A stretch of DNA of 64,000 nucleotides from Styela clava (Eukaryota; Chordata; Ascidiacea; Stolidobranchia; Styelidae), in assembly GCF_964204865.1 (NCBI RefSeq), contig NC_135252.1, forward strand, positions 12,669,383-12,733,382. The letters are read 5' to 3'. Below are positions 6,662-62,731 of this stretch, in pieces. The notes under the pieces were generated by a model that saw nothing but the letters and a program-made list of their open reading frames with translations, was not told the DNA's origin and ran no database searches. Numbering within the stretch: the stretch's first letter is position 1; each line of letters begins with the position of its first letter. Made by a program: the position numbers and the translations under genes.

Positions 6662-7103
6662 CAACCTCCCAGATTATTCACAATTTAGTGGAACACATTA
6701 TGACACAGTTTCTGTAAATAAAAGTCCATATGAAATAAGCACACAGAAACTCACACTTATCTTGAGACAAAATATGACAAATAGGTGCTTACAATTCGCA
6801 ATAACTTCACAAATGAAAAGTTATAACATACAATGCTGCCGTATATTAAAAAATAACGAATATGATCATGCCAGTTTTATGCTCTGCAACAAATATTATA
6901 CAATAGGTTTCTAACATCATTTAGACATCAGTTACATTGATCTGATACCTCAGGTTTCATATAAACAGTAGAATATTCAGATATTGCAATGATTCACCAT
7001 TGTCCGGATTGAAAGCTGACCTATAATTTCACAGTTTCGTATTCCAAAATTCAAACATCTTTGTCCATACTTTACAATTTTTATGAAGTTGAGCTAATTC
7101 AAA

Positions 7104-8927
<1,824 letters not shown>

Positions 8928-28600: not shown

Positions 28601-29131
28601 AAAACAGAAATACTAAATCCTAATGAAGGAGATGACAAAATAGATGTCGATATTGATCCTTCTTCGCTTAGGGCATCTGAACACTTGACATCCGACAAGT
28701 CTCATGCCTGCGTGGTTTTAGAAAAACTGAACATGGACGATATTGAAAAAAAGGCTAACACGAACAAGAATAGTGCTTATTCTGAAGACTTAAATCAGTG
28801 CACACCGACACACACATATTGCAAAAGCGACGAAAAACATGAAAGCAAAATAACAGAATATTGCGACGATGCTATTGGATGCGTAACTAATGCATCTGAT
28901 GACACAATGCTGCGGCATGGGGAAATTAAAACTATTTGTGATACATCTGTTAAGAGCTGTGCCGCAGAAACATCACGGTATAACAAGAAATCTAAAAGTA
29001 CCTGTTCAAGGATACGGACGAGACTGGGAAATTGGAAACCAATTATATTTCCTACAATTAAAAGTGTTCCTCATCTTCCACTTTCGTCTCCAACAGAGGT
29101 AGAAAATCAGTTGTTTTCCAACAAAGTATAA
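22637..29131 (+). CDS. Unknown ~1260-residue Ser/Asn/Gln-rich protein, two exons
   Basis: Exon 1 is 22637-22873: ATG in ACAATGG context, 79 codons, ending HRRQ before gtaaga. Exon 2 runs from 25586 (TTTCAG acceptor, phase 0, starting ICSSFESPPNTSRAN) to the stop at 29131, 1181 codons in one frame. I recognise no domain. The protein is low in hydrophobic stretches, with no signal peptide or membrane segment, and is rich in Ser, Asn, Thr and Gln. Basic clusters (KKNSDTHVSRKVKSVPKH; TRKRHHS; a C-terminal SRIRTRLGNWKP) suggest a nuclear or nucleic-acid-binding role. Six degenerate repeats of 56-61 residues lie in the middle. One intron of 2712 bp holds a hAT-like element. It may be a lineage-specific gene. 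Confidence 0.75.
23462..25125. mobile_element. hAT-like non-autonomous element, ~1.66 kb, in an intron
   Basis: It starts TAGGGTTGCCACTTCTGGA; the right end, reverse-complemented, starts TAGGGATGCCACTTTTGGA. The 8-bp flanks GTTATCGC at 23454-23461 and 25126-25133 are identical. It occupies over 60% of the intron of the plus-strand gene. No transposase frame is convincing. Confidence 0.88.
24821..25016. repeat. ~100-bp tandem duplication inside the intronic element
   Basis: TCCCGTAATTTGGTGTTATTTGGAGTGCCGC occurs at about 24820 and 24922, each followed by CATTCGGCAG and then ACAAACGTTCA.TGTTTTTTT. The two copies differ by a few bases. Confidence 0.85.
27247..28230 (+). repeat. Six coding repeats in the unknown protein
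   Basis: Repeat starts are near 27247, 27422, 27605, 27785, 27953 and 28121, a spacing of 168-183 bases (56-61 codons). The protein core reads QTQGTGQQS, then a Leu/Thr segment, then QNQVIFSVS. Copies 2-3 end in PQQC.GNKNAS; copies 4-6 carry NYEKETETKT..ESIRE. The last copies are the most alike. Confidence 0.85.
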
Positions 29132-40382: not shown

Positions 40383-42133
40383 GAAGGATACGTACTGCCG
40401 CCTCCCAGTCAATTGCGAAAAATGCTGTCCAGTATGTAATCCAATTCAAGGTAGCACCCATGCAGAGATAATATGAACAGCACGGTATTTGTCGCAAACA
40501 TTGATCAGCTGATCGCCGCCGATCACGAGTTATCGGGCGACGCGGGGAAACCCCAATTTTACACGAAATAACAATAAAGAAATCCCCGACGAAAAAGGGT
40601 AACAGCGCGATCTTTTCTTAGCCTGGATGAATCCAAGTTCGCTCCAGTATCATTTTTCATTGCAAAATTACTTATACTACGAATAAAAACTATATGCCCA
40701 AAGGGCAATATGACAAATTTTAACCGCAACGAGTTGTTTTGAATCGCATCTATGAGAAGAACGCATGTTAAGTTCACTTCGGAATCCGCAAAAAAACAAT
40801 ATTTAAAACTACACTCGCTAAACAACATACAAACGGGCCGTTTTGCAGGATTGTTGTTGTTATTGAGTGAAAATAGCTTATTTTCGCAACTAATGAACCT
40901 ACAATTTTTCATAAAAGTAGTCAGAAGGCCACTGCTTTCATTTTTTGAAATTCCTTTCCGAGGGCCGATATTTCGTCAAAAATGTCGCTGTTTCATTTAG
41001 GTTAATTAAAGGGGAAGACTTTTCAGTACGTATTGTTTGTTGGCTGGTCTTTATCTCTTGAGTAAAGTCAATGCTCTAAACTTGTTAATGCATAACCGTA
41101 CTGGTGCATTGCGTTTACGCATATAATAAACCTCGCAAGCTCAAATAAGCAGGGTGGATTACTAGTCGACAGCGTAAAGATACTACAAATTATTTGCCTT
41201 CCCTTTAATCTCCTAAATGCTTGAATATCACATCCACAGCTCACATCAGCTAGACCTAATAGAATGTTGCTAATATTTTTGAATAAGCTGGTAGATGAAC
41301 AAAGGGTATTTTCCTTAAATCAATCCTAGCATGGCCAATACACAAAAGTTCAAACACAATTTTTAATAAAAATATAATTTCAATATCTCAATATATAACA
41401 CTTCCACCACAAACGAACCCGTAAAAATTCAGAAAAAAAGATTCATTATAAACAAACATTACTCTTTCTTCGCTATTAACATATTCCATTTTTAGTGAAT
41501 ACTTAGTTATAGATCACAGTGAGCTCCTCTGGTATGCAAATTCATCAGTTACATTACGACCTATTATATGTTTTGGCTTAGTTGAAATAACTTAGAATTC
41601 GATGCAACAACAAAGTGCCAATGTATAAATTGAATGTAGACTGAACAGCATTTCCTTTAAAAAAAATAAATTTTTCATTCACAAATCCTATCTTAGATAT
41701 GCTCAAAAAATCTCTAGATTTTAAAATTAACTAATGTAGTTAAATAGGATAGGATTCTACATATTTATTCCGCTGGAGAGGAAAGTCAACAATATGGCTT
41801 AATCATATGTTGAACCACAGCCTCTCGCCCAGTTACCGGTCCATGTCTGGTATGGATTAGATAGCCAGTTATTTGTTTCCAGATGCTTGGACTTCATGGT
41901 GGATGAAGCCGTAACCGACCACCAGTTATGTAAACCAACCTACAGCAGCGAGGAATCCAGCACTCCTCTCGCACATAATTTACACATAAGATTTAAACCT
42001 GTGACCCCGCACAGGTAATCAAAAGTTTGCAAAGAATTTTGAAAGGATTATTGTTAAGTCTAACCAACTCGTATAAGAAATTGCCATTCAATTTGGAAAG
42101 CCTATATTCAAGAGTACTTAAAAAAAATTGTAC
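40383..42133. other. Intergenic region between SLC49A4 and the CCP/vWA gene
   Basis: It contains the SLC49A4 promoter at its left edge and, on the minus strand, the likely 3' end of the CCP/vWA gene. If the last exon is read through its donor, a stop follows within about ten codons (near 42100), and an AATAAA on the minus strand lies near 41762. A reversed SINE copy occupies about 41795-41990. No other gene was seen. Confidence 0.5.
41795..41990 (-). repeat. SINE copy (reverse orientation)
   Basis: CCAGTTATTTGTTTCCAGATGCTTGGACTTCATGGTGGATGAAGCCGTAACC corresponds to the reverse complement of the tail at 50590-50660. It shares CAGCACTCCTCTCGCACATAATT with other copies. Confidence 0.65.
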
Positions 42134-44004
42134 CTTTTCCATCAATGGAATCGAAACTATAATCTGACATAATTTCATCTTGAACTTCCTCAAGAAGTGA
42201 TGGCAATTCGTCAAAACTATCTGCTAACACAATTTTTCCAGTAATTGTCAGTAGCTGGTCAGGATTAAAAGATCCAATTCCAATGGCAACTATTTTGATC
42301 CCTTGAATTAAGAAGTTTCAAAACAGATATTATCTAAAAGCATAGCAGTTTCAGAATCAATGTAATAGTATTCAATATACGAAAAGCCATATATTCTTTC
42401 CTTTATCAGAATGAAAATGAAATATAATCTATCTTGTCTCCATATTTACTCTAGAACTGAGAAGCAACTACAATATCTAAAAAAAATGTTCAAAACGTGC
42501 CTATTGCTTTCTTCATATAGGATCACTGCCTAATTGGTTAGTCCAACTATAAAACGTCAGCTAGCTGACAAAGTCAAGAATACATAAAACCTAGCTCTTT
42601 CGAATCTTCTGCTAAAAATTGCAAACAAATGGCTGTATAATAATACTTTCACTAACAAAAATCCTCAATAACCTTCCTGTCTGGCTTCTAATGCTGGCTG
42701 TTTAACATCATCATTTGATCTTCCATCAGTTAAAATAACCAATATCTTGTCAACATTATCACGACCGAGTGCTTCAAAATGTTTGGTGCCTTGTGTAATT
42801 GCATTACCAGTAGCAGTACAACCTTTCATTTGGCTGATTTCCATGATGGTTTCTCTCAGATATCTGAATGGATATTGGCCAAGTTCTACTTCAATCTAAA
42901 TTGAAAACTTGTGAGTTTAAATAGGTGAAAGACAGAAAAAGTGATATGAAACCAACTTTTACCCGATATTTTGGATTCAGAGCACCAGATGCACACATGA
43001 AAGCTGATTCTCCACTGTATTCAATTATACCAACCTGAAAATTGGAGAAAACATAACATTAAAAGTCAAACAATAGCATACAATGTGATTACAATTCATT
43101 CAAATGAATGTTATGATACTGTTTTTCTGTTCCATGTAGGCTCTCTACTGAACCCTTACGATTTCTTATTGAAATAAGCTCAAGCCTTTGTACAGGTGAG
43201 CAGTTACTTGATCACAGCCATATTTGAAGCAGAAATTTTACATTTAATTTCAGAGAGAGCAAATATGACTTTATCCATTGACAAAACATGATCTTTCATT
43301 CAGTCACAAATCCGAATTAGATATTCATCCAGATACATACTTGTAAGGGGAAAAAGACATGACTGACCAGCAATGATAAGGGGCCTCTGCAGAGACCACC
43401 TGCCTGAAACCTGATGAGGAACCATGCAATCCTCTATCTCACATAAAAATGTGGAAACACTCCAATACACAGACAGAAAGTGCTAATCAGAACATGCCAG
43501 ATACATTCCTAGGTGCTGGACCCACAGATACCAGAGATGACACTATCAAGACTTCTCGGACTATGAGATGGCATATGAAAAGGTTTGTAGTTTTATGTTA
43601 GGGTTCTGTATTACTTAAATTGCAATGTACTGGTGTCAGCAGATTACTGGTATAAGTCGCTACTGCCGTAAACAAGCCCAAATGTGATATAAGTCCACAT
43701 GCATTGATAATTATCAAACAACTCCCAAATCAAAGTCATAACTCAAACCATCTTACGCCACCTCATGTCCTTGTTTCGAAAAGTCTGTAAACCCCAGGAA
43801 TTATACAATATAATGCAAGACCCTGCCTAGTTGATTTGACAATATCATGAATTACCCTGGTGGCACCAATGTCAATTTCTCCTTGCATATCTTCAAACAT
43901 TCTAACAACCCATTGTTTTGCGAATATAAAATCTTCATCATTTATACTTCCCGACCCATCAATTAATAGAATGATATCTCTCGCACAAAGGCCTTGTGAA
44001 CAGG
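42134..44004 (-). other. Second vWA domain, intact MIDAS
   Basis: Four exons. It begins ACSQGLCARDIILLIDGSGSINDEDF, with a complete DxSxS motif (DGSGS). It continues VGIIEYSGESAFM, then KGCTATGNAITQGTKHF (the MIDAS Thr region), then ILVILTDGRSNDD (the MIDAS Asp) and IKIVAIGIGSFNPDQL. It should bind Mg2+/Mn2+ and a ligand carboxylate in the classical manner. The final exon ends SIDGK before a gtacaa donor; the C-terminal exon, if any, was not located. Confidence 0.9.
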
Positions 44005-47000
44005 CTGGAAATAAAGAATAATAGTCAAAATGATGAAAAAGAACTCACAAGCTAAAGTATATGGTCAGTTGAGACATCTAAGGCAATACACAAATGACTA
44101 CTGATATTTAACAATACGTAAGGACCTTCTATTTTTAGAAATACTGCAATCTTTACGGCTCAGTATTGCGTAACAGCAAGCATGAGACGTAGCTGGCATT
44201 GCCAAAACGGCTAAGTATAATGATTTAACCAATTTGCCATTCTTTGCACCCTCATCTCTATCATCTTGCTTTTAAAGGATCTTAGTAACTTTTGATCACA
44301 GTCACAGATCGATTTGAAGCAAGCAGTACAAAAATTGCTGTACAAAATTTTGTATAGTTCAAGTATATACACTTAAATTAAATGGTTGAAATGGCCATCG
44401 TCCAGGCACAACCAAGTCTATGTCACTACCTAAGTATGTCATCCAGATTCAGATTTCAACCATGTTTTAATAATAAGAATTGAATTTATCTGATAAAAAT
44501 ATAAATACTTGAGCAGATTGGAGGTGGATTTTCCCATATGACATGACCTTGCTTTCCTGCATCAACACATACAATCATTGCACTTCCTTGAACTATATAC
44601 CCTTCATTACAATCAAAGCGGCATACAGAGCCATACGAATTATTTTTCGTGCATTCCACTATCCCGTGAGCAGGAGGTAATAGCACCGGCTGACAGGATA
44701 ATCCTAAAATAAAATAAAAATGGGGGATTCAAAATCGGAATTTCCCACCGAACGGCAACTGAAACAGTCACATTGATTACACCACTCGTCAGGAGAGCAG
44801 AGTTTTTCAGTGGATAATGTTTTTTTGTTGCGCAAAATATTCAATCCATGACAGATATAAGCAGTTCAAATGCTGGCCTAAATAACCACGCCCTCTGATG
44901 AATTCAAATCGATGATTTCAACAAAATTAGCTGTGCGAATCGCACTGATTATTAAGCAAAAATTTCAAGAGGGGGAAGTGGGTGAGACCCCCAAAAAAAA
45001 CCTTGCTGTGCCACTGCTTACAACTGTACAAGTATTAATATGTAACCAAATAATTTTAAAAACCAAAAAATTACAGTTTATTATTAAGTGAAAAATCATT
45101 CAGATACATATTTAAATGATTTCAAGGCCAATCCTATACGGCTTGTTACCTGCCACACATATAGGCATTCGAGCATTCCATTGACCAACACCTTTTCCGA
45201 GTGGGTCTCCACAAAACAACTGGGATGAACCAACCAAATTGAAACCATCTTTACACCAGATACGACAAAGTGAGGAAAAGCTGTTTTCTTTAGTACAGTC
45301 CATCTCCATTTCTGGTATAGGTAGTAGAGGAGGGCAGACAACACCTAATAACAGCCAGATATCAAAAAATGACATTATTACTTTTATTAGAAAATAGTGT
45401 GTATGTCCTCAACATATGTATATTTGTATTTATAGGAAAGAAATCATTTAAGGACAGAATACACATACAAGACCCTTCAAGTCATAAAATATTACAAAAA
45501 AACGTACTATTTACAAATATAAATGTTCTTCCAAAAACTATACTACATATCAGTGGCCGCTTTTCAAGGCCTTGTTTGATGGAGAATATATCCAGTGGTC
45601 TGGCAGTTAAAGTGCTAGACTCTGTAAGAATCACAGGTAACACATCTTGGGTTCAAATCCCATGGGGTGTAGTAAATTCGGGATACCGTACCAGTTAGAT
45701 CTTGCCACTTTATAAAATTATAGCTCTTTGAATATTGTTAAATATTAGTGGCTGCTTCTACATGACCTTGTTTGCAGTGAACATGGCAAATGAGCGTCGG
45801 ATAAAAAAGGATGAAAAAAAAATCAGTTAACATCAACAACATTACTTATACAACTTCCTGGTGGAGAAATCCATTCAACACTTCCATCCCCATTCATATC
45901 ACCACACAGAGCAGTTGCTTGTCCAACTAATTGAAAACTATCATCACAATGAATTGTACATAATTCACTGGCAGGACCATCTTGCTTCAATATACAAGTT
46001 ACTGTGCCATTATCTATTGGTCCAGAACAGAGAGAATGATCTGAAATGCACATTTTGTTAAACGAAATGTTAAACGAAAAAGAAATTCTTAATATATGGA
46101 CAAAATGAAGAAGTTGAATAATAGGGCCACCGCAAAGTCAGCTAAGAAATTAGACAAAAAGGGTGAAATATTTCATACCTTTACAGTCAATTTTAATCAA
46201 GTCTGTAAGAAAAGTTGTTGTTACTTCATTTAATTGGTCTGTTGTCGACGCCGTAAATGATCTGATATAATTTTTTTCTAAGAAGTTAGTGGCTTCGTCT
46301 CCAACACCAATCCCAAGAATAGTGATATCTGAAAATTAACTCTTTAAATTATGTAGTGTATGACAAAGATGGGAGGGAGAAAGCAAAAATTATTATATGT
46401 TGGAGCATTTTACTAGTTTGTGTGTACTTCGCTAGTCTAGTCTGACACATTCTTCCCAAAGGCAGGTATGGCCTTACCGATAGTGAAGTGAATAGTTAAG
46501 AAGGCTGAACTTTGCAAGATCGGCTAAAAATTTCTTAGCAACACCATAATGAAGCTCTCACCAGATTCATTTGCTTTGTTTAACGCAATATACGTGCCAT
46601 CTTCAGCTTCACCACCGAGTAAAAGTACTATGACAGGCATCATATATGGACGTTGCCTTTCTTCAATATACTGCATTGTATCGATCATGGCTCGACCAAG
46701 GTGAGAGCATCCTCCAACATGTTTAATTTTTCTTACTTTTCTTTTCAAAGCCTCCATGTTCCGATAATCCAACTCCATTTCTATCTTTTATAAAGTTGGG
46801 AGGGTTAGGCTCAATTATATGGTCAGATTGAATGCTTATGTATGGTGCAAAATTGAACAATTTTATGCAATGCATTACTGCCAATTTCAGAATACTTATC
46901 ATGGCTGTGAAGCCGTAGAAAATTTTTAAACTCCCCCTAATTTTTATTGGGAAAAACTTCAGCTTCGACTTTTGAATTTGAATTCTGAAAAAATCAAATT

Positions 47001-50000
47001 TTGATAACAAAAACTTCGGTGTTGAGTTTTGACTTCTTTATCACTAAAAAAAGCAGACAGAATTTGACTTTGTGGAGCTTGAAATTAAGATTCTCAATCC
47101 AGTAAAGATATGCCAAACACAGCTCTGCTACTCATATACCTCTGATGGAATATTGAGCATTTTTAGGATTGAAAAACGGCAAATAGTGGAACACTTCACT
47201 GACAACAATATGATTTTCATTTATGAGAAAGATCTATACAAAAGTTTACAAAAACAATATATTAATAATATATTGAAAATATTTATGACCTTGAAATGTG
47301 GAATTGTATACGCAGTGTTGCATTTCTTTTCTCTACTTCCATAAACAGCAATAGATATCCAAGTAGCTCCAGCATTGATACCTCCACGAATTTTGTTCAG
47401 AGCTCCAGACAACCAATCACGAGCGTCAGAAAAGAACCATGATTCCCATTTTTGTGATCCATCCATTAATATGAAAACATCTAAAAGTCCGACGCCACAT
47501 CCTGAAATATTTATATTCACAGATTAAAAATTTGATTTTTCATCTTTGCTACTCATTCCTTTTTGATTGCACCATAGTCTACCACTTAACATTGGGTGCA
47601 TGAGTGTAATTGACCACATAAAGCCCAAGCAAATGTGGTCAAATCCACAACTAGCATAGTTTGACAGTTGGCATATTATGCTAAGCGATAACAACTAGCT
47701 TCCCATAGAACTCCTAAATACCCTATGTGGGTTAGCACAGTTGAATCCTGTGGGAGGTAATTATGTGCGGGTGGATTATTATTGAACTCTTCGCAGTTGG
47801 TCAGTTACCGGTTTGGTAACAATAAAGTTTAAAACAAATTACTGGTGAAGGAGTTTTGTCCCAGGGTTGAAGGTGAAGTGACCACCAACAAGACTGACAT
47901 CAAGGGCATGATGAATCTTCTTTTTCGATTTATACCCAGCCTTATGTATGGCCGATGATGCTTTTCTTATTTTTTTTATAATTTTTCAATTTTTAACTGG
48001 GTCCAAACTAACTTTCCTTCAAGCTTTTTGATTACCAACCTTACACGCTCCCGTTGCACCACTTGTAATAATAACTGATTAAAAAGCACAACACAAAATG
48101 GAATAAACAATGTACCTGCACAAGAGAGAAGATCTTTATCCCAAAACCCAGCACCATCGTTAACACCTGGATCTGCACAAATAAATTTGACGTTTTCTTT
48201 GTATTTTTGTGATTTATGTGAACATTTTACATCACATTCAGCTCCCGGTGAATTTCCACCAAGACAATAAGCATCAGGTCCAAACATATCTTTGAGATCA
48301 GGAAGACAATTTGTAGCTGGGAGAGAATATTATAAAAATCACCATGAAAAAGGAATATTCAAAGTGAATATTTTTCAATCATGTACAAGGCAGTTCGATT
48401 CAGACCTGGAACACATTTACCAACCCAATCAATGGCATATTGAAAAAAAATAGAAAATTTAATGGCTTGTTGTCATAGTAACTCGTAATATGCTGTTATG
48501 ATACCAATGTAAATGCTGATAAATATATCCTAATTTGATTTACAAATAATGTTAAGATGGAAAGTTTCATGTCATTGAGTCAATGTAACTCGTATTTATC
48601 CATTTCAATGTTGTTTATGTTTTAAATCTGTTATGATGAGTAACACGGAATGAAGACAAGAGCATTTTCGAATACCGATTTCAGAATCAAATATCAAATA
48701 CTTGGGAAATTGATGACGGTATGAAATTTTTTTATTCTTATTTTTATTTCTGCAGACTCATAAATTACTGAAAAATAGAATCAGACATCTTGCCTTTCAT
48801 TAGAAAACATGTTTTTTATCACTAAATCCATTGAAAGAAAAGAGTCACGTCAGTCACTCAAACAGTTCACTTAGTTTTCACACACAATCAAAAACATGTT
48901 TCATCAATAAATCACTCGGAAGAAGAGTCATATGTCTGTTTGCATATTAAAAAAATGACTTCCAACAAACAAAAAAATGGATTCACCTCATTCTTTGGCA
49001 AAACAGAATAAAAACAAGATGGCGGTGATTCGAAATTTTTGTTTGAACCAATTCGCCTAATTTACTATTTGATTCAAAATGCCCATCTCCACTCGAAATA
49101 TCAGTGTTTCGACTCTCGCATCACTAAACAAAAACAATTTAATACATGATCCTTACGGTCACAAGTAGGTGTTGAAGAGTTCCATATTCCTTCCTTAGTA
49201 CAAACTAGCTCATATGGAGGAACAGGTTGAAATCCTGAATCACAATTGAATAAGCACTGAGATCCAATACTGTTTAATTTTGAACAAATTGCTTCTCCAT
49301 GATCAACTTTTGTTCCAGAAATGGCACATGAAGTTCCTAAAAAAAGTGAAAGATAGCGATTTCGAGCATAATCGATGAACAGATACATGATTTTCTATTT
49401 TTATCCCAAAGAGAGGAAAGCCTATAAAACAAAATAATCACATGGCGAACCGCTTCCTCTCAAGGCGGTTATCAGCCCATCCCAGCTATGAAAATAGTTA
49501 CCAGTTATTTGTTTCATATGCATGAACTTAATGGTTGAGGAATCCGTAACTGGTCCTATGACGGCGATAAATCCAGCAATCCAATATTGAGTCAATAATT
49601 TTTCATGCTAATACTAATTAGATTTATTTAGTTATTAGTAGTAGAAAAGTAAAAACAAATTACACATACAGAGGTACAAATCAACTTGAAATTTCAAGGT
49701 GAAGGTGGAAGTGAAAAAAATCACACTGGTTGTCAAGTAGCAACAACACAATCATAAAAGAAAAAACTTGGCATGACTGATATAAGGCCTGATTGCACCA
49801 ACTAACAACTAACCTCAAAGCAAAGTAAGAGCCAATAGTTATAGAAATTATATAATGGTATATAATGGCATATGGCACTGTAAACTGGTGAACTATTCAT
49901 ATTTTTGACTTTGACAGCCTTGACAGGCAATATGGCTAGAGTTTTTCCATCATTCCGGATAATAGAAAATCTTATTGAAAGAAAAGAAAATGACTCAACA

Positions 50001-53000
50001 AAAAAAATAAATAAATAAAATGCCATTGATAAATGTACAAAATATACTTACTAATACATTCCGGTGGTCGGAAACTCCATTCTCCAATCCCATCTCTATT
50101 CCTGTCTTCACAATCAATGATATCTCTACCAGTGTCAAGTTCTAAACCTTCTGGACACTTGAATGTACATCGAGAATCTTTTTCATTTGAGTCCGTACAA
50201 GTGTATTCGGTCTCGGGTGAAAGTTCAAACTTCTCAATCTCTCGACACAAATATTTGAAAACTGCAAATAAAATGTTAATTTTTATAAAAAATATATAAA
50301 GGGAGTTACTACTTTATAAATTAATGATGTTGCGTTATGTGACAGCAAATTTTTCCGGCATGAGACTTGAAGTGGTTGCATTCTATATGATCAGTTGACA
50401 ACTTTTTTTCTTGGTCTTCTGCTAAGCGGTGTGGCGCATCATGCTAAGCGTTAGGAATACTATCGCCACCACACCTCTGATTACCCTGCATGGGTTTATA
50501 GATTTGAATCCTGTGTGGGATAATTATGTCCAAGATTTGCTGGACTCCTCGATGCAATAAGGTGATTTGGTTCACGTAATCTCTGGTCGGTTACGGCTCC
50601 ATCCACCATCAGGTTCACGCATTTGAAACAAATAAATGGCTAAACTAACTGCATACCCAACATGGACTGGTAACTGATGGAGAGGCCATGGTTCGCCATA
50701 TGAATAAGGAGTCTTATCGGATTTCCCCTCCCCCTGGATGAACATGTATTATTATCCTCTCCTGTCTAGACCATTGTTTCCCAATTGCGAAGGAATAAGG
50801 GAAATTTGTTGTTTCGGGGGAAAATACAGAAATATTACTTTGTATCAGGTGTGGCTTTGCTGATATTGTTCAGATATTTAATATTATTGTAACACATATT
50901 TACGCACAGATTACTGCCTATTCGAACCGTGCAAAAGAGTGCAAGTTGAACTAGCTAAAGATTCTTTGAAGATTGAACAAATAAAGGAAATATTCATAAT
51001 GAGGCGGGGATGAAGAGATCCAAAATAGGCAAATCGATAGAAATCTATTGAAAAAGGTTGGGAACACTCGAATAAACAGTGACAGTTCATGAACAAGAGC
51101 CCAAAAAGAAGCAATAAAATAAATGCAATAAACAACCTTCACATTCTGGAACCTTTCCAACCCATTCCCCACCATCCTCTGTTTCAGTCAGGCCACAAGT
51201 AACCAGATTGACATGGGATAAAACAAGTCCCGAATCACATTCAAATTGACAATCTGATCCTACCCTATTCAAATCTGAGCAACTGAGGGCGCCATTTTCT
51301 GGAGGTTTCAGAGGAGGACTACACGTATATACACCTGAAATATTAAAAACAAAATGTTGGATTTATTATAAATATGGAGGGTTGAAATTTTCCATTAATA
51401 TGATCCGTGTCGTATCTGGAGTTGAATTCAAAATTCTGAAGTCTCTGTCAAAATTTCAGATTTTTATTTTTAAGTGAAGAAGTCAGAAACAAATTCAAAA
51501 CAAATCATGTTTATAAAGTGATCTCAACACTTAATAGTCGGCTTGTTTTGTTATTTTCTCAGAGTTCGGGTCAGATTTTTATAACCCGGCGTAAATTTTC
51601 CTCACCACAGGGGAAATGTACTAGAATTTTCGAAGCAATAACTGAAAACAAGCAGATTGTGAAGGGGTAAGTATTGTCAAGTCTTACAGTGAATGTGACT
51701 TAAGTTTGTCCATTTCATGTGGGTATTAAATTTAAGATGAATTAAACCTGACACAGAACTCAACCTGATTTAACACTCCAGAGTGCAGTGACTCAAAGTT
51801 TGGACTAGTTTTTATTCGAGACTTGGATGACCTGTGAATTGACTTATAATTCAGAAACTTGCATCTAACACTTTTGTTATCTAAATTTGATAAAATATAC
51901 ATACAACTAGGTACTTTTGTGCTCCATTCCCCATCACCATCTCCATTTTTATCGACACAGGTTATTTTACCGATATCTTCATCTAATCGCATATTATCCG
52001 GACATTCGAATGAACATACAGAATTTCCTAGATTTGCATTCGTACATGTAAATGTCGTTTGTTCTGACAATTCAAACACTTCAATTGCGATGCACACGAT
52101 TGCTGGGAGAAAAAAAGATTTTATTTATTCATATTAGAAAGAGAACATTAGGTCTTTAAGACTTTCAATTACAATGCTATCGTAGGAAGGAATAAGAATG
52201 ATAATACAAATTAATCATATGGCGAAAAACAAACATCTCGCCCCTTTATGAGTCAGGTTCGGGTATGGGAATAGGTAATTGTAATCTAGCCATTCTTTTT
52301 ACAAAATCACCTACACAGGGTTTAAACTAAGAAAGGAAAGTGAATGAAAAAAATTTTTATTGCACCAACAACAAACTGCACCAAGCATAAACTGAACTTA
52401 CGAATCACACTAGGAAATCAGAAAGGTGATAATAATCAGAATCGCTGGACTTCTCATAGTTACATGGTGTTTCACGTACCACTGTTCGGTAACAAGTATT
52501 ATCATTATTCAAATCAATAAATTGGTTTGCTCTTCCAGAAACCGACCTGGGCTGGTAACCAAACAAGAAGCTGTACCGTTCACCATATGATTAGCCTATC
52601 TTTTCCTATTCCGCAGGATAAAAATGGAAATCCTGTACTATCCAAATCGCAATAAATAATGATAGCTTACGTATACAATTTGGTATTTCACCACTCCATT
52701 CCCCATTTCCATCTCCATCATTATCTTCACAGACTATTACATTTTCAACGGGATCTGATTTCCATCCGATCGGACAATTGAAAGTACATTCAGAATTTCC
52801 GTGATTAAGTTTAGTGCAACTATATGAAGTTTCAGTTGATAATTTGTCATCATCTATTTCCTCACATAGAATAGCTGTGCATATATCAAGCAAAAATAAA
52901 CACTTGACCTTCGGCAAAAGTATAATTTTCATTGTTATCATTATGAGTGTGTTTATTAAAAATACCCTGTTTTTGATAAGAGTACAGTATTGATGGTTGT

Positions 53001-56000
53001 TATTATGTCTATGAAGTCGGGTAAAATTTATAATTGACTCAGATTAACGAATCCAGGTTGAAATAAATTTTAACGTCCAATTTAAAGATTGTATTCTTCG
53101 CCGGAAGACGATTATTTTGATTTTGAAATTTTCTGTAGTCTATATGAGATTTGTTTTTGTGTGCAATGACGTCATTCAAAATTGTGCACCTTTTGATTGT
53201 GACAGTAGTTTATTGTGACAGATTGTATAAATGTACTACTTCGTTTTGGCGTTGTATGCTACTACGACCAAATACATTCTAAAAAAGTTGTTTCCGAATA
53301 TATAATATATTCAAAATTGGGTGATGACTTCTATATTGGATTAAAAAAATTAAATTCTTATCGATTTAAGCATTTAGAGTTTTTGAACTTTGATTAACTC
53401 ACACAAACATAAAGCAATTAGAAAAATCTTTACGTGTGCAATCGGGAACTTCTTTATCCCAATCTCCAAAATCATCTCCATCTAGATCTTGGCATGTTAC
53501 TTGATTGTGTTCTGTGGTTAGCTTCATACCAGATGGACATGTGAAGTTACATACAGAATCCAATTGATTTGATTTAGTGCACTCATAAATTGTGTCTGGA
53601 TCGAGAGATTTTTCATCAAATTTACACGAGACAGCTAAAAATAAAGCAAATGTTTTTTATAAATAGGAAAACACCCACAAATACAAAATCCATTACCATA
53701 ACTAAAATATAAAGAAACTGTAAATTTATTATATTGAAAAATATGTTGTGTTAATCTAGTCGATTTATAGTTTTTTTGGACAATGCTTTCTCATGTCTTT
53801 CACTCCGAATAAGGCCCTGCATGAGCAGCTACTGATGCCTGAGTGGGTACTATTTTGGGAAGGTCTGTAATCTTTCTGGTACGGTAATGCCTACCTAATT
53901 TATTACACAATGGTTGAGGTGGGATTTGAACCCAGCATGTGTAATCTGCATTCAAGTCTTACGCTTTAATTGTTGGAAAAACTAAATTTATTAGATTTGG
54001 AATATGAATATTATATCATTGCAAAAATGACAAGATTATTCCGAAAATATATAATATGAATTTAATTATGTTAAAAGATCAGAAATATGATTTTAGAATA
54101 TCAATAAATTTGCTTCAATTTAGTTGAAAGAATTCATCCAAAGCAAGGTCAGGTGCCTTCAGAAGTAAATGACACTCAAGTATGTGCAAAGTTAAGTTTG
54201 ACCTATATATACCGTAGGTATAGGGTAGTGCATTAACCTGGCAAATCCAAATTGGGATGAGACTCAATTCACTACAAGTTGATATGATCTCAACCCTCAT
54301 TCTCCCATTTATCCCCTTCCCCCTGTTAAATTTACTCGGGGAGTAGAGAACAACATGGATATAATACTTGCAAAATTTATCCCGAGGCAGGAGCTAGCTT
54401 TCAATGTGCTTTTAAACATTACCATGAAAGATAATGATAATTAAATAGCTGAAACAGATTTTCACTTCAATAAAATTATTTTTATAATATTTTGAATTTT
54501 TGATTTATTTGATACTCACGAACACAATTAGGTATACCATCGCTCCATTTTCCTCTGCTTGTTTCATCAACATCTTCACAATATATTGTGTCCACTCCAT
54601 TATGAAGTCGATATTTATCAGGACAATTAAAATCACATTTGCTGTTTCCGATATTTTCATTTGTGCATGAGTAATTGGTCTCTCTGGATAGTTTATTAGG
54701 ATCAATCACATCACAAGTTATCACTATAAATTAAACAGAAATGAAACAAATTAGAATGCTTATTTATTTTAAATGATTCAAGCAGGCTGTGAAGTTGAGG
54801 GGAATTCACAATTGTTTGAATTTATTTGAAATTGGACGTCTCAAATATTCACCGAATGGCGTCTGGCAAAGGGAGCTACACATAACTCTGAAAATTATTT
54901 AACAGCGTTTCGCTACAAATGACACAAAATTTTTAGTATTTCAAACGCCTCATGACACCGCGAGTTGCACTTTTGACGCACTGTTCAGTTTTACCTTAAC
55001 TCCTCTGTTAAAAAATTCCTAGCTGCACCAATGAGTACACTGTTCCGAATGTCTAACGAAATTAATGCCTTTCCTCCAGGAAAATCAAAATTTGAACACC
55101 AACATCTGGGAGTCCTGTATTTAGGCAGGGCTGTGGAATCGAAAAAAACCTGCGCACCTTTAATTCCAATCTCGATGCGTCCCAAATATTTAGATACTTA
55201 CATATTGCCAGAAGAATTTCAAGGCCACCTATTTCATTATTCAACCCCATTAGAGTAGCTTTTATTCACCTTCACACGTTGGTTCCATCTTCTCCCATCT
55301 GCCAATCCCATCATTATTATCATCAGTGCATTCGTTCCTTGATGAACCAGCAACATAATAACCAGTTTCACATTCAAAAGTACAAACAGAATCTTTGATA
55401 TTTTCATTTGTACATGATAATGTACCAGACTCCGGTGATTCTAACTTTGGTTTGCATTTGACAACATCAGCTGTGAATCACAATGTTCGAATGCATTATT
55501 TAATACTAACTATTTTGGGGGGTGTAGTACAAATGACAACAACGATAGATATATTGGACCCAAAGTGTACATATGAATTGTTTTGTTATATTCCTGCTAA
55601 TTCACTCTAAACAAGGCGCTATGCTATACAAGTGGCTACTGAAATCTCACAATATGTAAGGAACTACCTTTATTTGGAAGGACAGGAATCTTTCAGGTTT
55701 GATATTGCCTACCCAATTGTTTTTGCCCGTAGTAATACCAAACAGGAATTGAAATGTCTTTAATGTAACGTATCACACGCATTGGGCACTATCAAAAAGC
55801 AGTTTATGTGACTGAATGTTTCTTGTAAGATTCCCCCTTTCCAAAGGGGCAGGCATGGTATTCAAACAAGAGATGAGTGATCTGTGATGCTAAAATGGTT
55901 AAGTCTAACGCTTTTACTGCTAGGCCACTGCACCATCCTTGTATCTTGTTACTGAGACAAAAAATCTTTTTTTTCCTCGCAAATAATGAACCAAGTGATT

Positions 56001-59000
56001 GATCTCCAATTTTCTGTACTTACAGATGGAAAAGCTCACTAGAAAGATATATATTTTTTTCCTGATTTTTCATCAAAACAAATTTGACGCTAATTTAGAA
56101 GTTATTATTTCACTGAATAGAAATTTATGTAAGTAGCTTGACTCAACAATAATTATAATATTTATCTTAACAGTTTTGTCTGATGAAGTTAGAGTATGAT
56201 TTAATGAAAGCTTACAAATATACATGCTATTCCATGGAAAGAGTTTATGGTATATATTTATGTATACTTACGAAAGCAGATCGGTTCATCATCGCTCCAT
56301 TCACCAATTTTATCAAAATCATTGTCGTTACATGTAACCACATTACTACCAACAACATGATATTCTTCGATACATGTAAATGTACATACTGATGTAACAT
56401 ATGATTTGCCAGTGCAAGATACATCACCATGAATAGGGGATCCATATGGTGGTAAACATTCCCCCAAATAAGCTGAAATTAAATAAAATGAGGAAAAAAC
56501 ATGGTCGTCGAAAAAACTTACGGTAATTTCTTCTACAAGAAATAAGAAAATGTATTCAATTTTGTTCACATTTGAACTTCTGTTTGTGTATGATTGTGCC
56601 CTAAGGTTTCAGTCATCTAAGACATTCCAAATGACCGTCTCAGCACTGGAGACAACCCTACGTCCAATGCTCAAAAATTTACAGCACTCGAACGTACTCC
56701 TGTCAAGGGATTTTGCTGATCTTAGCTACAATTGCAGCCCTGGGTTCACCAATTGTTTGATGAATATGTATAAAAAAGAATTGGAAAAAGTAGTAGTCAA
56801 CTATAAAATATTAGATCATTCTTTACCCTCTTAATCTAAAGTTTTTCAATATGAGTAAGAGTTACATAAGCTTAGTTGTTTGATAGTGTAAGGATTGATG
56901 AAAGCTATTCGACATCAATTTTCTCACACTTTTGCTTGAGGTTTTTCTTAAATATTCACTCAAAGCAATTAAATTGCTTCCATTGCTCAGAATGATAATT
57001 TTCCAAAGGAACTACCGGTATTCTAAAATATCCCAAAAAGCTAGAATCCCAAATATCAAATATGAAAGGGAATTTTTTTTGGACACCCATGGTAAAGAAA
57101 CATATATTTTTCAAGCCATTACCAAATTTTATTATTTAATGTAGATATTTATAAATAGAATATTGTTCTCACTTGAGCAGATAGGAAAAGTATCGGACCA
57201 CAAGTAAGCATCTTCTTCTTCTTCATTTTCTAAGCATTCAATTTCCTCAGGACCGAATAAAACATATCCATTATTACAGTAAAAAGAACATATAGAACCA
57301 ACATAGGCTGCATCAGTGCATTGCATTTCCCCATCAGCTGGATCAGTTAAGTCAGTACAATCGCTCGGAATAATGATTACATATTCTGTGTAGAAAATTT
57401 TTGAAAGATTTGAAAAAAAAATGCATTATTGCTTGGTTAGAGCAGGAGCAGTGGATGTTTTTGGATGTCACAATTCCCATTTGATATGATTGTGTCAAAT
57501 TTAATAGTGGCTGACATTACTGAACTGAAGATGAAAAAAACATTAATATTATTTTAACAATTCTTAGTTTAAATAAGGTTTAAAAATAAATCTCAATTTT
57601 GTATGTAGTTTCATTTTCATAACTTTCTCTAGGAGCAGGGTACTGCATAAAATGCTTTAGCGGACGGGCAGCAGTTTACCTATAACTGGATGAGAGTGTG
57701 CATTATTGGCACAAAAGTAGCATGTTCAAATCCAATACTGGTTATATAGACCAGGGCTACTCAACTATTTTTACCGAAGATCCACATACAAAACTTCAAA
57801 AATATTTGGGTCCGGTCTTTCCAGAAATTTTATTTCGCCATCCTTAAACACACACTTCCTCGGCCGACTAATGATTATTAACTATTCAAGATTGTTTATT
57901 ATGGCGTTTTAGTTCTTTTCATATTTATTTAAATCTATAAAAGTGATTTTATAAAAGAAAAATTCAAAAGTGGAGCTAATGATCCAAAATAAAGAATTAG
58001 GCGCGGTCCGAATCGAATACCCGAAAGGTCCGGATTCGGACCGCAGTCCGCCAGTTGAGTAGCCCTGATATAGACTATGACCAAGATGCCTGAAGTCACA
58101 TACAATTTACGACAGATTGGAAAAAAATTCCTTTTTTTAATATTAAATTATGACAAGGAAAGGTTTTATAATGTATGGTCATTCAATTAACCAAACCAAA
58201 ATCTGGACACAATTTTTTGATATTGCTAAAAACAACACCAGATTTTTTGATTTTTGCTAAAATAGAAAAATGTCAATAAGAAAACAGAAGAGATTTTTAA
58301 TACCGAAAAATACATTGTCATTTGTCAGAGAGATAATACATGAATGATAGACATGTTTTCTTACCTTCACAGAAAGGAAAGCTGGCATTCCAATCTCCGA
58401 TTCCATCATTGTTTTCATCAAAACAAGATGCCGGTGCCAAACCAATCAATCGAAAACTATAATCACATGTATAATTGCATGTTGAGTTAAAAAAATTTGA
58501 ATCAGTGCAGTTGACAACTCCATTTTGTAAAAACGAATATTCAGGTAAGCATTTGATTCCTGGAAAACGAAATAGAGATGGGCTAAATAAACATTCCTGA
58601 CATTCAAAGCGAATGAAATACTCAGTTCAAATTCATATATATACCAAACAGTATTGTTTTTATCAACTGACATAGACATACACCAATGTGAAAGCATAGA
58701 GTAAGGATAAGTAGTTCGTAGGTATTTATATTCTTTTTGCTCTGAACAAGGCTCTGCCCAAGCAGCCAATGATATGTAAACAACTGCTTAATTTTGAAAG
58801 GACCGGAATCTTCAAGGTGCGTGGCTCCCCCTCTCAATTTATCAAATCCATGAGATGATGAGGTGGGATTTGAATCCACAACTCCATCATACATACAATA
58901 AGTTTCACGTTTCAACCACTAAGCTTTTACAGAAATTAGGATCTAGATAATTATATTTCATTGAAAAAATTTTCTCACTTTCACATTTGGGTATTTCCGT

Positions 59001-62000
59001 TGTCCATTCTCCTTTTCCATCTTTATCTTTATCCTTACATGTCATGCTAGTATCAGATCCATCAACCCACATTCCGTCAGGACATGTAAATAAGCATTTC
59101 GATCCCCAGTAGTTTGTATTTGAACAGTTAATATCAAGTTTATCGTCCACCATTTTCCATATAATCTCATCACAAAAGATGTCTAATGCATAGGAAATTG
59201 TGATTATGTACTTAAAATGTCTTGCAACATATAGCAAAATGCTTTGTCGGGGGGGATTTCTTGACAGAAGACAAGTCAAGTTTATTTTTTCCAACATGAC
59301 ATGACCAAACCTGAATAATATACTAGTCAATGTATAGCACATGAGTTTGAATTTGGAAATGTGGGAAAATGGAGATAAACAATGATTTGATTGGTTTTAT
59401 ATATTTTACAGTTTTTCACAGAAATTAAATGAAGGCCTTTCTGGTTATACTGTGATACCTTCAAAGCTAAAAATAAAGTTTTTCAGATTTTAAATTAATA
59501 ACTAAACCAAGAATTTGAAGTACAGAATGAAAAAATTTACAGGTATGTTATGTGAAGATACTTTGTTCTTATGTAATAAATCGGTAGTCGAACGACTTGA
59601 CACTCCAACAATTCGACACTCCAATAAATCCAAACACTCTTATGTCGACTTACGAATACAATTAGGTATTTCATTCTCATCCCATTCACCTACGCCATCA
59701 TCATCCAAATCCTGGCATTTCATTTCATTATATTCTTTATTTGATATCATTCCTTGCGGACAATTAAATGAACATACAGAACCAGCATGATATGAATTTG
59801 TGCATGTCATTTTTGTATCGTTTGACAGATTAGTTAAATCAAGTTCGGTGCAGTTTATTGCTAGAGAAGAAAATGAAAAGTATTTTAGTTATAAGAATGC
59901 TGAGAGTGTTGGTGTGGCCTATTGAAAATAGTTAACGCCCAACATTGCAAAGACTGTTCAAAGACAGAGCTTTGTTCAGAAGGGGAAATTATGATTCATA
60001 CAAAGGAATAGCACAAGTTATTGTCATCAAATAATAATTAAATCATTTAATAAATATACCGTCGTTGTTCAGAATAAAAATGTAATATAAAAATGGAGCT
60101 TTATTGATTATAGGCAGTGAGCTTAAAAGGAACAAAATTTCAGAAAAGCATATACGGTATTTTATTTTCTGATTCTTTGAAAAATAGTATCTCATCATAT
60201 GAGAGTGACTTCTTTCTTGTACAGAGTCGCATTCAGAATAAAATGCATAAAAAGATAATTATTGATTTTTGGCACTAGGCTCAGAAAAAAAAACAAAATC
60301 CAGCAAAATCAACACTTAATAGGCAAAAATTTATTTTAGTTCCCAGTCCCTTATCAAAATAGTGCCTCTTCATGTAGCAGTGACTCCAAAATGTTGCATA
60401 AAAACGATATTAATAGATCATAGGAAGTAGGCTCAAGCAACATTGAATAGGTGACATGTTATTACGTAAAAACTCACGTCGACAATTTGGAACCTCATCA
60501 CTCCATTTTCCTGTTTTATTTCCATGTGGATCTTCACATATAAGCACTTCCGAGCCACCGACTAATGTAGTACCATCATCACAATAAAATGAACATTTCC
60601 AATTTGAACAAGAATAAAACGTTTCATCTGTCACCATTGATCTTTTAATTTTATCACATTCAACATCTGCAATAACAGAATGCATGACACATGAAGAATT
60701 TGCTGTGAGGCCGTGAAACAATTTGAAATGGCCATCTAATTTTCAAACAATAATGGTGATTGGTGATTGAAACAAATTACAAACCGATACATATTGCATA
60801 CTAAAGATACTTACTTATACTTATTTTATTTTTTGTCAATTCAACCTGTGGGCACGTTAAGCTAGTTAAGCTGGAGGAGGCATGGGAGGACGGGAAAATG
60901 AAACAGCCTAATCCGGTTGACATTCTATGCCAAGTATGGGAATAGTTCGCCAGTTGTTTCGGGTGCATGGACTTGATGGTGTGATTGAACTGACCAGTGG
61001 TTTCATGGACTACCCCATGAGTGCGAGGTATCTGGAAACCCTCTCGCACATTATTATCACCCAATTGAACCCGCAAATTTTCACAGGGTCATCAGACTAT
61101 ATCCTGCTATTTCGGTTTGAAAAAGTTCTATTCGCTTTGAAAATTGACTTTCCATAAAATATATCTAGATTGTCATCTTCGAATCCTATGTATATTACTG
61201 TAACTACTTAAGTTGTATCAATTAAGTACATTTGTAATGCCTACCATAACAAATTGGTAGAGGGTCACTCCAACTGCCGTGTTCGTCATTATTCAAATCT
61301 TCACAATATATTTCCGATATAGCATTTGGTACTTGCATTCCATCTGGACATTGAAAAATACATTCTGATCCAAAAATATTAGTGTCATTGCATTCGAAGC
61401 TGGTTTCTGGCAATGAATCTGAATCAATCTCTTCGCATGTTATATCTGTCACAAAAATATTCAACATATAAAATGGTAGGTATTCACAGCCACAGGAACT
61501 AAAAATAAAAAGTATTTATTTGTGATCGTATTGTCTTGATAAGTCAAGTCAAGTTTAGTAAACTAGTAAAAAAAAATCACAAGCATAAATTACAAGAAAT
61601 TGATAATTTACACAGTTTTACTGGGGAAGGGAAGTCGCGGGGAACCAAAGCTGGTTATCGAGCAGCGACACCCGATGAATTGATAGTAATTGAGGTTTGA
61701 CGGTAATCTTTGCACGCCAATCAAACCAGGAAAATATCTAATGTGGCATTTTCAATAAAAAATAGCTGAAGGATTCTGTGAATATTATTCATTATAATAA
61801 GTAGTGTATTTATCGCTATATACCAACGGCTCTGTCCCAAGATTAACCGGGTTGTCAATGCAACTATTTATTGGTAAGTAACATGGTAATTCGGGGTTAA
61901 CTCAGCGATCAGTTAAAAATTTAGATGAAAAATGTTTTAATGATCATTTGGTTCTGTTGCTAGTTTTGAGGTCCAGTATTACCATTAGCCCAGTACTACG

Positions 62001-62731
62001 ATCTGCAAATCAGATGTACAACTGAACATTGGGCTCAGTATCCTGACTCAACCCTTCAATTTTTTAATGGATAAGTCCATGATACTACAAGAAGGTGGGC
62101 AGATTAGGCAAATAATAAAATTTTAAGCCATACTCAATGATTACAGCAAAGGATAAAATTACATGTTATTCACCAAGCTTTACCAAGAAAAAAGAGAGAA
62201 TATCTATTCGCCATCATACACTCTGCAACTCCTCATGACAATCGAATGAGAATTTGCCATGCCTTAATTATAAGTTGCATGAGCCCACAAAAATGTCATT
62301 GATTATGACCTTAGGTAATTCCTAATTTACTGACGTAACTGGAAATGAATTCCGTAAATTCCGTGCAAGCCTATGTATGAGTAAACTGCGAATAAAGTTA
62401 TTTTACTATGGTTGTATTTATCGCAATCACATTTTACCCCAAGTGTTAAAGCACAAAAAACAGACATATTTATTGGAATAGATTTGCTTTTTTATGAGTA
62501 TAAGAAAAAAAATGTATATTTTACCTATACAACTCATTTCAGTACTATTCCATTCACCGAATCCATCAGCATCCCTGTCTTCACATAACAACATTTCTGG
62601 TCCCCCATCATTATCCAATCTTTTACCGGTAGAGCAGCTTAATGTACAAATCGAATGTTTCTTATATTCTTTAGTACAATTCACTTTTGTGATATCAGAT
62701 ACGAGCTCCTTAAGATCAGGGCAGAGAACAT
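42134..62731 (-). CDS. Giant CCP (sushi)/von Willebrand A extracellular protein, 27 exons, partial
   Basis: Exons 5' to 3': 62731-62525, 61445-61245, 60666-60478, 59860-59654, 59182-58979, 58559-58365, 57385-57173, 56472-56272, 55470-55270, 54723-54520, 53634-53434, 52874-52671, 52102-51905, 51334-51137, 50261-50052, 49336-49157, 48316-48116 (17 CCPs, one per exon, all phase 1-1); 47501-47290, 46784-46562, 46328-46179 (vWA1); 46040-45846, 45344-45150, 44703-44509 (CCP18-20); 44004-43856, 43034-42963, 42895-42673, 42301-42134 (vWA2). The visible coding sequence is 5196 nt, 1732 residues. Phase is continuous throughout, so a single transcript is plausible but not proved. No signal peptide or start exon was found; it probably lies right of 64000. 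The architecture recalls SVEP1/polydom and selectin-type CCPs, proteins of cell adhesion or humoral recognition. No orthologue is claimed. Confidence 0.85.
44509..46040 (-). other. CCP modules 18-20 between the two vWA domains
   Basis: Three exons of 195 bases each, phase 1-1. They read CSGPIDNGTVTC..., CPPLLPIPEMEMDC... and CQPVLLPPAHGIVEC..., the Pro/Gly-rich start typical of CCPs, with FQLVG, FNLVG and YIVQG before Cys5. They are closer to canonical or selectin CCPs than the first block. Confidence 0.87.
45580..45715 (+). repeat. tRNA-like SINE copy
   Basis: AGTGGTCTGGCAGTTAAAGTGCTAGACTC (A-box-like) and TTGGGTTCAAATCCCATGGGG (B-box) are spaced as in a tRNA, but the sequence does not fold as a full tRNA gene. 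It lies in an intron of the CCP/vWA gene. Confidence 0.6.
46179..47501 (-). other. First vWA domain, degenerate metal site
   Basis: Three exons (212, 223 and 150 coding bases). It begins GCGVGLLDVFILMDGSQKWE, where the MIDAS DxSxS would be; here it is DGSQK. The later Thr motif is replaced (GGCSHLGRAM against GCTATGNAI in the second domain), and the LTDG aspartate becomes LGGE. The fold-level pattern (hydrophobic strands, DITILGIGVGDEATNFL) is retained. It is predicted not to coordinate a metal in the classical way. Confidence 0.82.
47690..47830 (+). repeat. tRNA-derived SINE copy
   Basis: ATTATGCTAAGCGATAACA, then TGGGTTAGCACAGTTGAATCCTGTGGG, GGTAATTATGTGCGGGTGGATT and GGTCAGTTACCGG match the family at 34365 and 50425. 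It is intronic. Confidence 0.7.
49440..49600 (-). repeat. SINE copy (reverse orientation, tail part)
   Basis: CACATGGCGAACCGC, GTTACCAGTTATTTGTTTCATATGCATGAACTTAATGG and CCGTAACTGG parallel the copies at 41795 and 60900. It is intronic. Confidence 0.65.
50425..50710 (+). repeat. tRNA-derived SINE, longest copy
   Basis: The head AGCGGTGTGGCGCATCATGCTAAGCG is followed by a B-box-like AGATTTGAATCCTGTGTGG, then the body GGATAATTATGTCCAAGATTTGCTGGACTCCTCG and a tail ending CATGGTTCGCCATATGAATA. At about 285 bp it serves as a family reference in this window. Confidence 0.75.
52215..52600. repeat. SINE fragments
   Basis: CATATGGCGAAAAACAAACATCTCGCC on the left and GAAACCGACCTGGGCTGGTAACC...TTCACCATATGATT on the right are tail-like parts in opposite orientations. 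It is intronic. Confidence 0.5.
53785..53970 (-). repeat. tRNA-derived SINE, second family
   Basis: The reverse strand carries CTGGGTTCAAATCCCACCT (B-box), preceded by an A-box-like AAAGCGTAAGAC. The far end reads ACTCCGAATAAGGCCCTGCATGAGCAGC. Copies occur at 120-274, about 55600-55930 and 58725-58925. Confidence 0.7.
57752..58067. mobile_element. hAT-like MITE, 316 bp
   Basis: The ends CAGGGCTACTCAACTA and CCAGTTGAGTAGCCCTG are inverted. The flanking octamers ATATAGAC at 57744-57751 and 58068-58075 are identical. Subterminal GGTCCGG/CCGGACC motifs occur inside. It lies in an intron of the CCP/vWA gene. Confidence 0.9.
58725..58925 (-). repeat. tRNA-derived SINE, second family
   Basis: TTTTTGCTCTGAACAAGGCTCTGCCCAAGCAGCC at one end and GAGGTGGGATTTGAATCCACA (reverse B-box) at the other, with GGACCGGAATCTTCAAGGT between, as in the copy at 53785. 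It is intronic. Confidence 0.7.
60900..61080 (-). repeat. SINE copy (reverse orientation)
   Basis: GGGAATAGTTCGCCAGTTGTTTCGGGTGCATGGACTTGATGGTG and CTCTCGCACATTATTATCACC align with the copies at 41795 and 49440. It is intronic. Confidence 0.65.

Follow-up and report, generated by a model that had tools for sequence, protein, structure and literature searches.

The 64,000-nucleotide stretch of the Styela clava genome analyzed here (contig NC_135252.1, positions 12,669,383 to 12,733,382; hereafter the window, whose numbering is used throughout) carries on its minus strand a row of exons encoding CCP (sushi) modules in which an acidic D-x-(D/N)-x-D-G loop recurs between the fifth cysteine and the core tryptophan. 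The CCP domain is well known; an acidic, calcium-type loop at this place appears from the sequence to be a new variant of it. The explanation that best accounts for the data as a whole, and that we consider fairly probable, is that the exons belong to a giant extracellular protein built from a six-cysteine CCP variant, whose putative calcium-binding loop, the FG loop, would help to form a rod stiffened at its joints.

All nine motifs named in the original prediction are present as written, each within a CCP exon on the minus strand (62550-62585, 59682-59717, 59004-59039, 58390-58425, 55295-55330, 52696-52731, 51924-51959, 50077-50112, and 45871-45906). A search of all six reading frames of the window for the 12-residue pattern C-x-D-x-[DN]-x-D-G-x3-W gives nine matches, and 200 dinucleotide-preserving shuffles give none. 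When the ten inner residues were shuffled within each of the 17 window loops that are 12 residues long, a mean of 0.08 loops matched, with a maximum of three in 5000 rounds, compared with nine of the 17 real loops. It is therefore the spacing, rather than acidity alone, that sets the motif apart. The claim that most modules carry it is loose for the window, where the full motif is found in nine of the 20 CCP exons counted with a hidden Markov model (HMM) at E<0.01, the other 11 having a partial or degenerate motif or none. The interval proposed for the array, 45846..62731, does begin and end at outer exon borders (acceptor at 62731, donor at 45846), but the probable gene runs past both. The tryptophan described as invariant is a general CCP feature, and its invariance here is owed partly to the loop definition used.

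Across the 61 modules of the extended array described below, the Cys5-to-Trp loop is exactly 12 residues long in 55, and position counts refer to these 55, leaving out the other six modules, with the first Asp numbered 1. Asp is found at position 1 in 54 loops, Asp or Asn at position 3 in 51 (26 Asp, 25 Asn), Asp at position 5 in 50, Gly at positions 6 and 8 in 38 and 53, and Glu or Asp at position 9 in 48; positions 2, 4, and 7 are mixed. The candidate side-chain ligands at 1, 3, 5, and 9 are all kept in 47/55 loops, and 35/55 keep Gly 6 as well, that is, the motif together with an acidic position 9. In the available part of the survey by Rigden and colleagues (PMC3123361), the Dx[DN]xDG calcium site is defined by the ligands it offers, namely the side chains at positions 1, 3, and 5, a backbone carbonyl from the next residue, and one or more acidic residues further along, two positions later in integrin-type propellers. 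The array loops have the sequence features of this site, with an acidic position 9 like that of the integrin "calcium blades". The putative ligands also tend to disappear together: of the five loops without ligand 3 or 5, four have no acidic residue at 9 either, vs 3/50 of the others, with p values of 0.0005 for all 55 loops, 0.0025 for the 37 unique loops and 0.028 for the 17 window loops, values that the kinship of the modules makes look stronger than they are. The proposal that a CCP fold carries a calcium-type loop is thus well supported at the level of sequence, by the ligand alternation, the acidic position 9, the Asp/Asn choice at position 3 and the purifying selection described below, and Ca2+ binding by the loop is likely.

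The modules were assigned to the CCP family by profile and by predicted fold. PF00084 was matched at E up to 0.1 by 18 of the 19 window modules scanned, the best at 1.5e-09; module 62529-62723, scanned alone, gave no PF00084 match at 0.1. In an alignment of all window modules but 48120-48266, which was also left out of a second alignment, five cysteines and the tryptophan form invariant columns in 19/19, and Cys1 is present in each, although not in one column. The structure prediction suggested with the original prediction yielded two AlphaFold models, of the modules in exons 62525..62731 and 52671..52874, and both show a CCP fold with a confidently ordered loop in a predicted strand-loop-strand setting. 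The models align to CCPs of CD55, CD46, C4BP, CR1, factor H, and E-selectin. A phmmer search of PDB sequences with one module gave weak matches (CR1, 0.073; p53, 0.18, taken as chance). Many of the window modules that are only 19-38% identical to the first carry the pattern. Other homes of the motif were considered and ruled out: the EF-hand, because the loop is flanked by predicted strands with no helix on either side; the thrombospondin type 3 repeat, because all nine window motifs lie between Cys5 and the tryptophan of a CCP module; and the integrin-type blade of a beta-propeller, because the module of approximately 64 residues has a CCP profile and a predicted CCP fold and shares the loop pattern alone.

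Fourteen window modules served to build an HMM, with which the flanking chromosome (C3 of the 376.6 Mb, 379-contig assembly) was searched. Above 62731 it detected 41 further CCP exons on the same strand, from 64402 to 117265, of which 27 carry the motif in register, giving a total of 61 CCP exons over approximately 73 kb (CCP-like frames seen by eye near 114-119 kb stand outside this score count). Two of the 20 window CCP exons, together with a vWA domain, lie below 45846. The motif is in register in 36/61 modules; CIDPDGDFDGIW at 104475 carries it out of register and is excluded from that figure. Toward the N-terminus, three fragments have weak C-type lectin matches (E 0.00072, 0.019, and 0.03), each under the Pfam cut-off, and contain, by eye, EPN- and WND-like strings, which we take to be C-type lectin calcium-site motifs; two further frames scanned beside them had no Pfam match. 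One gene probably encodes the 61-CCP-exon array and is far larger than the window interval. From strand, exon phase, and spacing, we infer that the CCP array, the lectin-like pieces, and the vWA domain form a single transcript. The domains and the exon structure point to an animal gene; a search of the assembly for COX1 gave nothing.

More than half of the array (32/61 modules) consists of eight repeats of a four-module cassette in the order DCBA, with typical loops, in that order, of CEDSDDDGIGEW, CEDNNNDEVGEW, CVDSNDDGVGEW, and CEDNDGDGEGEW, the second being type C. Positions 1, 5, and 9 are unchanged in all cassette copies and position 3 shows only Asp/Asn swaps; the amino acid changes in the 32 loops are confined to x, 2, 4, and 7, to Asp to Asn at 3, and to Glu, Lys, or Asp at position 6 of type C. 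The ratio of nonsynonymous to synonymous differences (pN/pS) over whole modules is 0.17 for type A (eight copies), 0.38 for type B (seven of eight copies), 0.27 for type C (five of eight copies) and 0.23 for type D (eight copies), the omitted copies, one of type B and three of type C, being of differing match length. Mean identity between copies is 88-94% in exons and 74.5-79.3% in the flanking intron, a flattering figure for the intron because aligned columns alone were counted. Judged from these ratios, the modules are under purifying selection, and ratios for the loop alone are low in types A and C. As a separate observation, the copy number of the eightfold DCBA cassette (64402-117265) may vary between individuals.

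In the mechanism that we propose, irregular CCPs and C-type-lectin-like pieces would stand toward the N-terminus of a giant extracellular animal protein, followed by a run of 57 CCPs, interrupted close to its end by a vWA-like piece, and then by the vWA domain. The FG loop of each six-cysteine module would form a calcium site from the side chains of D1, D/N3, D5, and E/D9, probably together with the backbone carbonyl of residue 7. Where the site would sit is suggested by factor H: the available text of one study (PMC4068365) describes the CD and FG loops of CCP 11 as contacting CCP 10, and names Asp675, which precedes Trp678 of CCP 11 by three residues, as a possible salt-bridge partner of Lys624, directly after the last cysteine of CCP 10. 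From these contacts we read the segment before the core tryptophan as facing the preceding module. The linker is four residues long in 40/56 joints of the array, and if its modules pack as in factor H, the calcium site may lie at the module joint, beside the linker. The FG loop would then point from the end of the module toward the linker and the preceding module, and each ion would fix the enlarged loop and stiffen the joint between the two. Extracellular Ca2+ is millimolar, and for that reason a structural, always-loaded role fits better than the Ca2+ switch also envisaged in the original prediction, which we rank below it; in body fluid or seawater the sites would always be occupied. The whole array would act as a long Ca2+-dependent rod that keeps the lectin-like and vWA ends apart. 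By this analogy the joint-stiffening role is plausible, and we would not lean strongly to either side on it. A more ambitious version is possible but tentative: that the array presents a further Dx[DN]xDG context, at the CCP inter-module face, and is a CCP-based counterpart of the cadherin principle, in which up to approximately 47 bound Ca2+ ions, one per module, would make a chain of approximately 60 CCPs a stiff adhesion or matrix fiber that depends on calcium, grown by the eightfold cassette.

The strongest competing explanation accepts that Ca2+ is bound but has each ion stabilize only its own module, by pinning the long FG loop next to the Cys1-Cys5 disulfide, with joints and array shape unaffected. 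The same loop data (motif, shuffle test, position conservation) agree with it, and modules with degenerate loops occur within the same array, which means that joints lacking a site are tolerated. We nevertheless regard it as rather unlikely, because an effect on the joint is favored by the four-residue linkers and by where the FG loop lies in factor H, at a module joint. It is improbable that the loops instead form an acidic surface without a specific ion, serving cationic partners, low-affinity ion buffering, or mineral binding: some loops are merely acidic, for example CLENEEEEDAYLW, and acidic loops of other genes are in a different register, for example CVDDGDGDNLGEW, but acidity explains neither the excess over shuffled loops nor the set of Asp at 1 and 5, Asp or Asn at 3, Gly at both 6 and 8, and Glu or Asp at 9, interspersed with positions that vary freely. 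Drift of an ordinary long-loop CCP toward acidity in a duplicated gene, leaving a loop with no function of its own, would agree with the 11-residue FG loops, some acidic, of some CR1 and CR2 modules, with the 32 cassette copies among the 61 modules and with the slight constraint on type D loops themselves, and is very improbable given the pattern in so many of the divergent window modules and the sparing of positions 1, 5, and 9 when cassette loops change.

Several observations weigh against the joint-stiffened calcium rod. The joint loss of ligands is not seen in 13 same-length loops of other six-cysteine loci (5/3 vs 2/3, p 0.59). All eight type C modules have Glu, Lys, or Asp instead of Gly at position 6 and, with that Gly replaced, may bind weakly. 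The type D loop alone is barely constrained (pS 0.063, pN 0.041), the type B loop ratio rests on few changes, and the cassette copies are duplicates whose agreement is partly due to descent. The HMM seed modules were mostly long-loop, which may have caused CCPs without the long loop to be under-counted. Finally, a long minus-strand open frame resembling a retroelement integrase (by eye, 84946-86148) lies in an intron of the array; it speaks against a single transcript, and the stretch could be adjacent genes.

The motif had been ascribed to modules of the giant gene, and it extends beyond that gene. A single-module search of the genome scored 150 of 181 candidate places, the strongest mostly in the array itself, with further match groups on C1, C3, C4, C6, C9, C10, and C19. 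In 11 stretches from these groups (L051-L061), 40 six-cysteine CCPs were recognized, of which 34 have loops of 12-14 residues and four carry the motif in register; D-x-D/N-x-D occurs at some position in 14. None of 18 CCPs without the extra cysteine pair (L001-L008, L056, L062, L064; the one from L056 may be a chance frame) carries the motif, and 16/18 have a Cys-to-Trp segment of seven residues. The description of the Cys5-Cys6 segment as ordinarily a short turn therefore holds for such CCPs of this genome but is too strong for vertebrate regulators, where, among the alignments listed, some CR1 and CR2 modules have 11-residue segments that lack the motif (CTSNDDQVGIW, CTSDPQGNGVW, and CRSDSKGHGSW). 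These genome samples were chosen by query similarity or Pfam score rather than as a census, and the survey pattern required the tryptophan, leaving CCPs that lack it (L063 and others) uncounted. The loop seems to belong to a six-cysteine, long-loop class of CCP and to be most regular in this gene. Tandem six-cysteine CCPs in single open frames of 633-813 residues were observed at C6:7.5 Mb, C6:9.87 Mb, C10:18.05 Mb, and C19:9.44 Mb (L053, L059, L054, and L056, respectively); they differ from the one-exon-per-module array, many of their acidic loops are in another register, and they are possibly retrogenes. One scan of a viral contig collection found no relative (five pattern matches, none confirmed). 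A scan of genome contigs confirmed one of 14 places, a 21-residue match in a Verrucomicrobiaceae metagenome-assembled genome, which was rejected as a CxxCH protein, presumably cytochrome-c-like, with a chance GDGNGEW.

Table 1. CCP and vWA features on the minus strand of the window. Full loops were located by motif search and all CCP exons by HMM matches; exon borders are from heuristically chosen splice sites.
Feature	Position	Strand	Basis
CCP exon, phase 1-1, loop CEDRDADGFGEW	62525..62731	-	motif search, HMM, borders; AlphaFold model
CCP exon, partial loop CEDLNNDEHGSW	61245..61445	-	HMM, borders
CCP exon, degenerate loop CEDPHGNKTGKW	60478..60666	-	HMM, borders
CCP exon, loop CQDLDDDGVGEW	59654..59860	-	motif search, HMM, borders
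CCP exon, loop CKDKDKDGKGEW	58979..59182	-	motif search, HMM, borders
CCP exon, loop CFDENNDGIGDW	58365..58559	-	motif search, HMM, borders
CCP exon, acidic out-of-pattern loop CLENEEEEDAYLW, acceptor uncertain	57173..57385	-	HMM, borders
CCP exon, partial loop CNDNDFDKIGEW, no G6	56272..56472	-	HMM, borders
CCP exon, loop CTDDNNDGIGRW, R at position 9	55270..55470	-	motif search, HMM, borders
CCP exon, degenerate loop CEDVDETSRGKW	54520..54723	-	HMM, borders
CCP exon, partial loop CQDLDGDDFGDW, no G6	53434..53634	-	HMM, borders
CCP exon, loop CEDNDGDGNGEW	52671..52874	-	motif search, HMM, borders; AlphaFold model, mean pLDDT 88.6
CCP exon, loop CVDKNGDGDGEW	51903..52102	-	motif search, HMM; lower limit is module end; donor by heuristic 51872
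CCP exon, out-of-pattern loop CGLTETEDGGEW	51137..51334	-	HMM, borders
CCP exon, loop CEDRNRDGIGEW, acceptor uncertain	50052..50261	-	motif search, HMM, borders
CCP exon, short ordinary loop CTKEGIW	49157..49336	-	HMM, borders
Divergent CCP-like exon, loop CADPGVNDGAGFW	48116..48289	-	weak HMM match, 16.7 bits
Open frame resembling last part of vWA domain	46153..46335	-	by eye; no Pfam match at 0.1
CCP exon, loop CGDMNGDGSVEW	45846..46040	-	motif search, HMM, borders
CCP exon, degenerate loop CGDPLGKGVGQW	45150..45344	-	HMM, borders
CCP exon, degenerate loop CVDAGKQGHVIW	44509..44703	-	HMM, borders
vWA domain over four open frames, intact DGSGS, outer limits approximate	42111..44000	-	Pfam, by eye

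The CCP modules appear as separate exons, usually with phase 1-1 borders; one donor site was not located. Two of the four frames of the vWA domain match Pfam VWA (3.5e-05 and 6.2e-10); the other two have no VWA match and were assigned to the domain by eye. Its DGSGS is presumably a MIDAS-type motif. Elsewhere in the window, the plus strand holds a 1166-residue open frame at 25631-29131, with no Pfam match at 0.01, in DNA with degenerate repeats of approximately 168-183 bp. A 72-bp tandem repeat at 9125-9781 (6.8 copies, 94% matches) is open in two minus-strand frames, one of them without a Pfam match at 0.01, and is probably non-coding. A 322-bp unit occurs twice in tandem at 14511-15162, with related pieces on both strands at 13.6-15.9 kb, and is perhaps a mobile element. 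A DUF423 protein and an RNA polymerase N / 8 kDa subunit are encoded by small neighboring genes on the minus strand at 6298-7331. Frames at approximately 31-40 kb are transporter-like, and one of them matches MFS below the cut-off (E 0.0043).

With the CCP/sushi/SCR domain of complement regulators and selectins (PF00084), the array modules share the profile match, the model alignment, and single-exon modules usually of phase 1-1; they differ in having six cysteines and a 12-residue Cys-to-Trp loop in 55/61, mostly of the form DxDxDG-x-G-E. Selectin CCPs also have six cysteines. "Sushi" annotations in invertebrates may hide a six-cysteine, long-loop class. CCP arrays are mostly seen as metal-free rods that owe their stiffness to the length of the linkers and to hydrophobic joints. 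In cadherins, ions at the joints stiffen a tandem array, with ligands from both neighboring domains; the likeness to the present array lies in that proposed principle, whereas fold and motif are unrelated. Thrombospondin type 3 repeats also use DxDxDG. Sushi domains and calcium-binding type 3 repeats do occur together in the extracellular sushi-thrombospondins of sponges and anthozoans, proteins of approximately 1000-1300 residues that also have EGF and ConA-like domains, but, as described in the available part of the source (PMC6526912), their sushi domains are found close to the N-terminus and separate from the type 3 repeats, whereas here the motif is within the sushi domain. The original prediction knew of no standard CCP carrying the motif, and searches of the open-licence PubMed Central literature showed, among the papers listed, no report of a calcium-binding CCP; thyroid peroxidase was considered and rejected, its calcium being placed in the peroxidase domain, not the CCP, in the available text (PMC9986399). 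The 2011 survey (PMC3123361), which covers 16 Dx[DN]xDG contexts, uses none of the terms "sushi", "CCP", and "complement control" in its main text. The closest likeness of the loop is to Dx[DN]xDG loops, above all the integrin-alpha "calcium blades", with which it shares the motif, Asp or Asn at position 3, an acidic ligand two residues past the motif and a predicted strand-loop-strand setting; the fold here is predicted to be that of a CCP, neither beta-propeller nor EF-hand. If the interpretation is correct, the short list of Dx[DN]xDG folds would be extended by a context, a CCP class that carries its own calcium site; this class would represent a second way of stiffening CCP arrays and a small, portable, calcium-controlled module.

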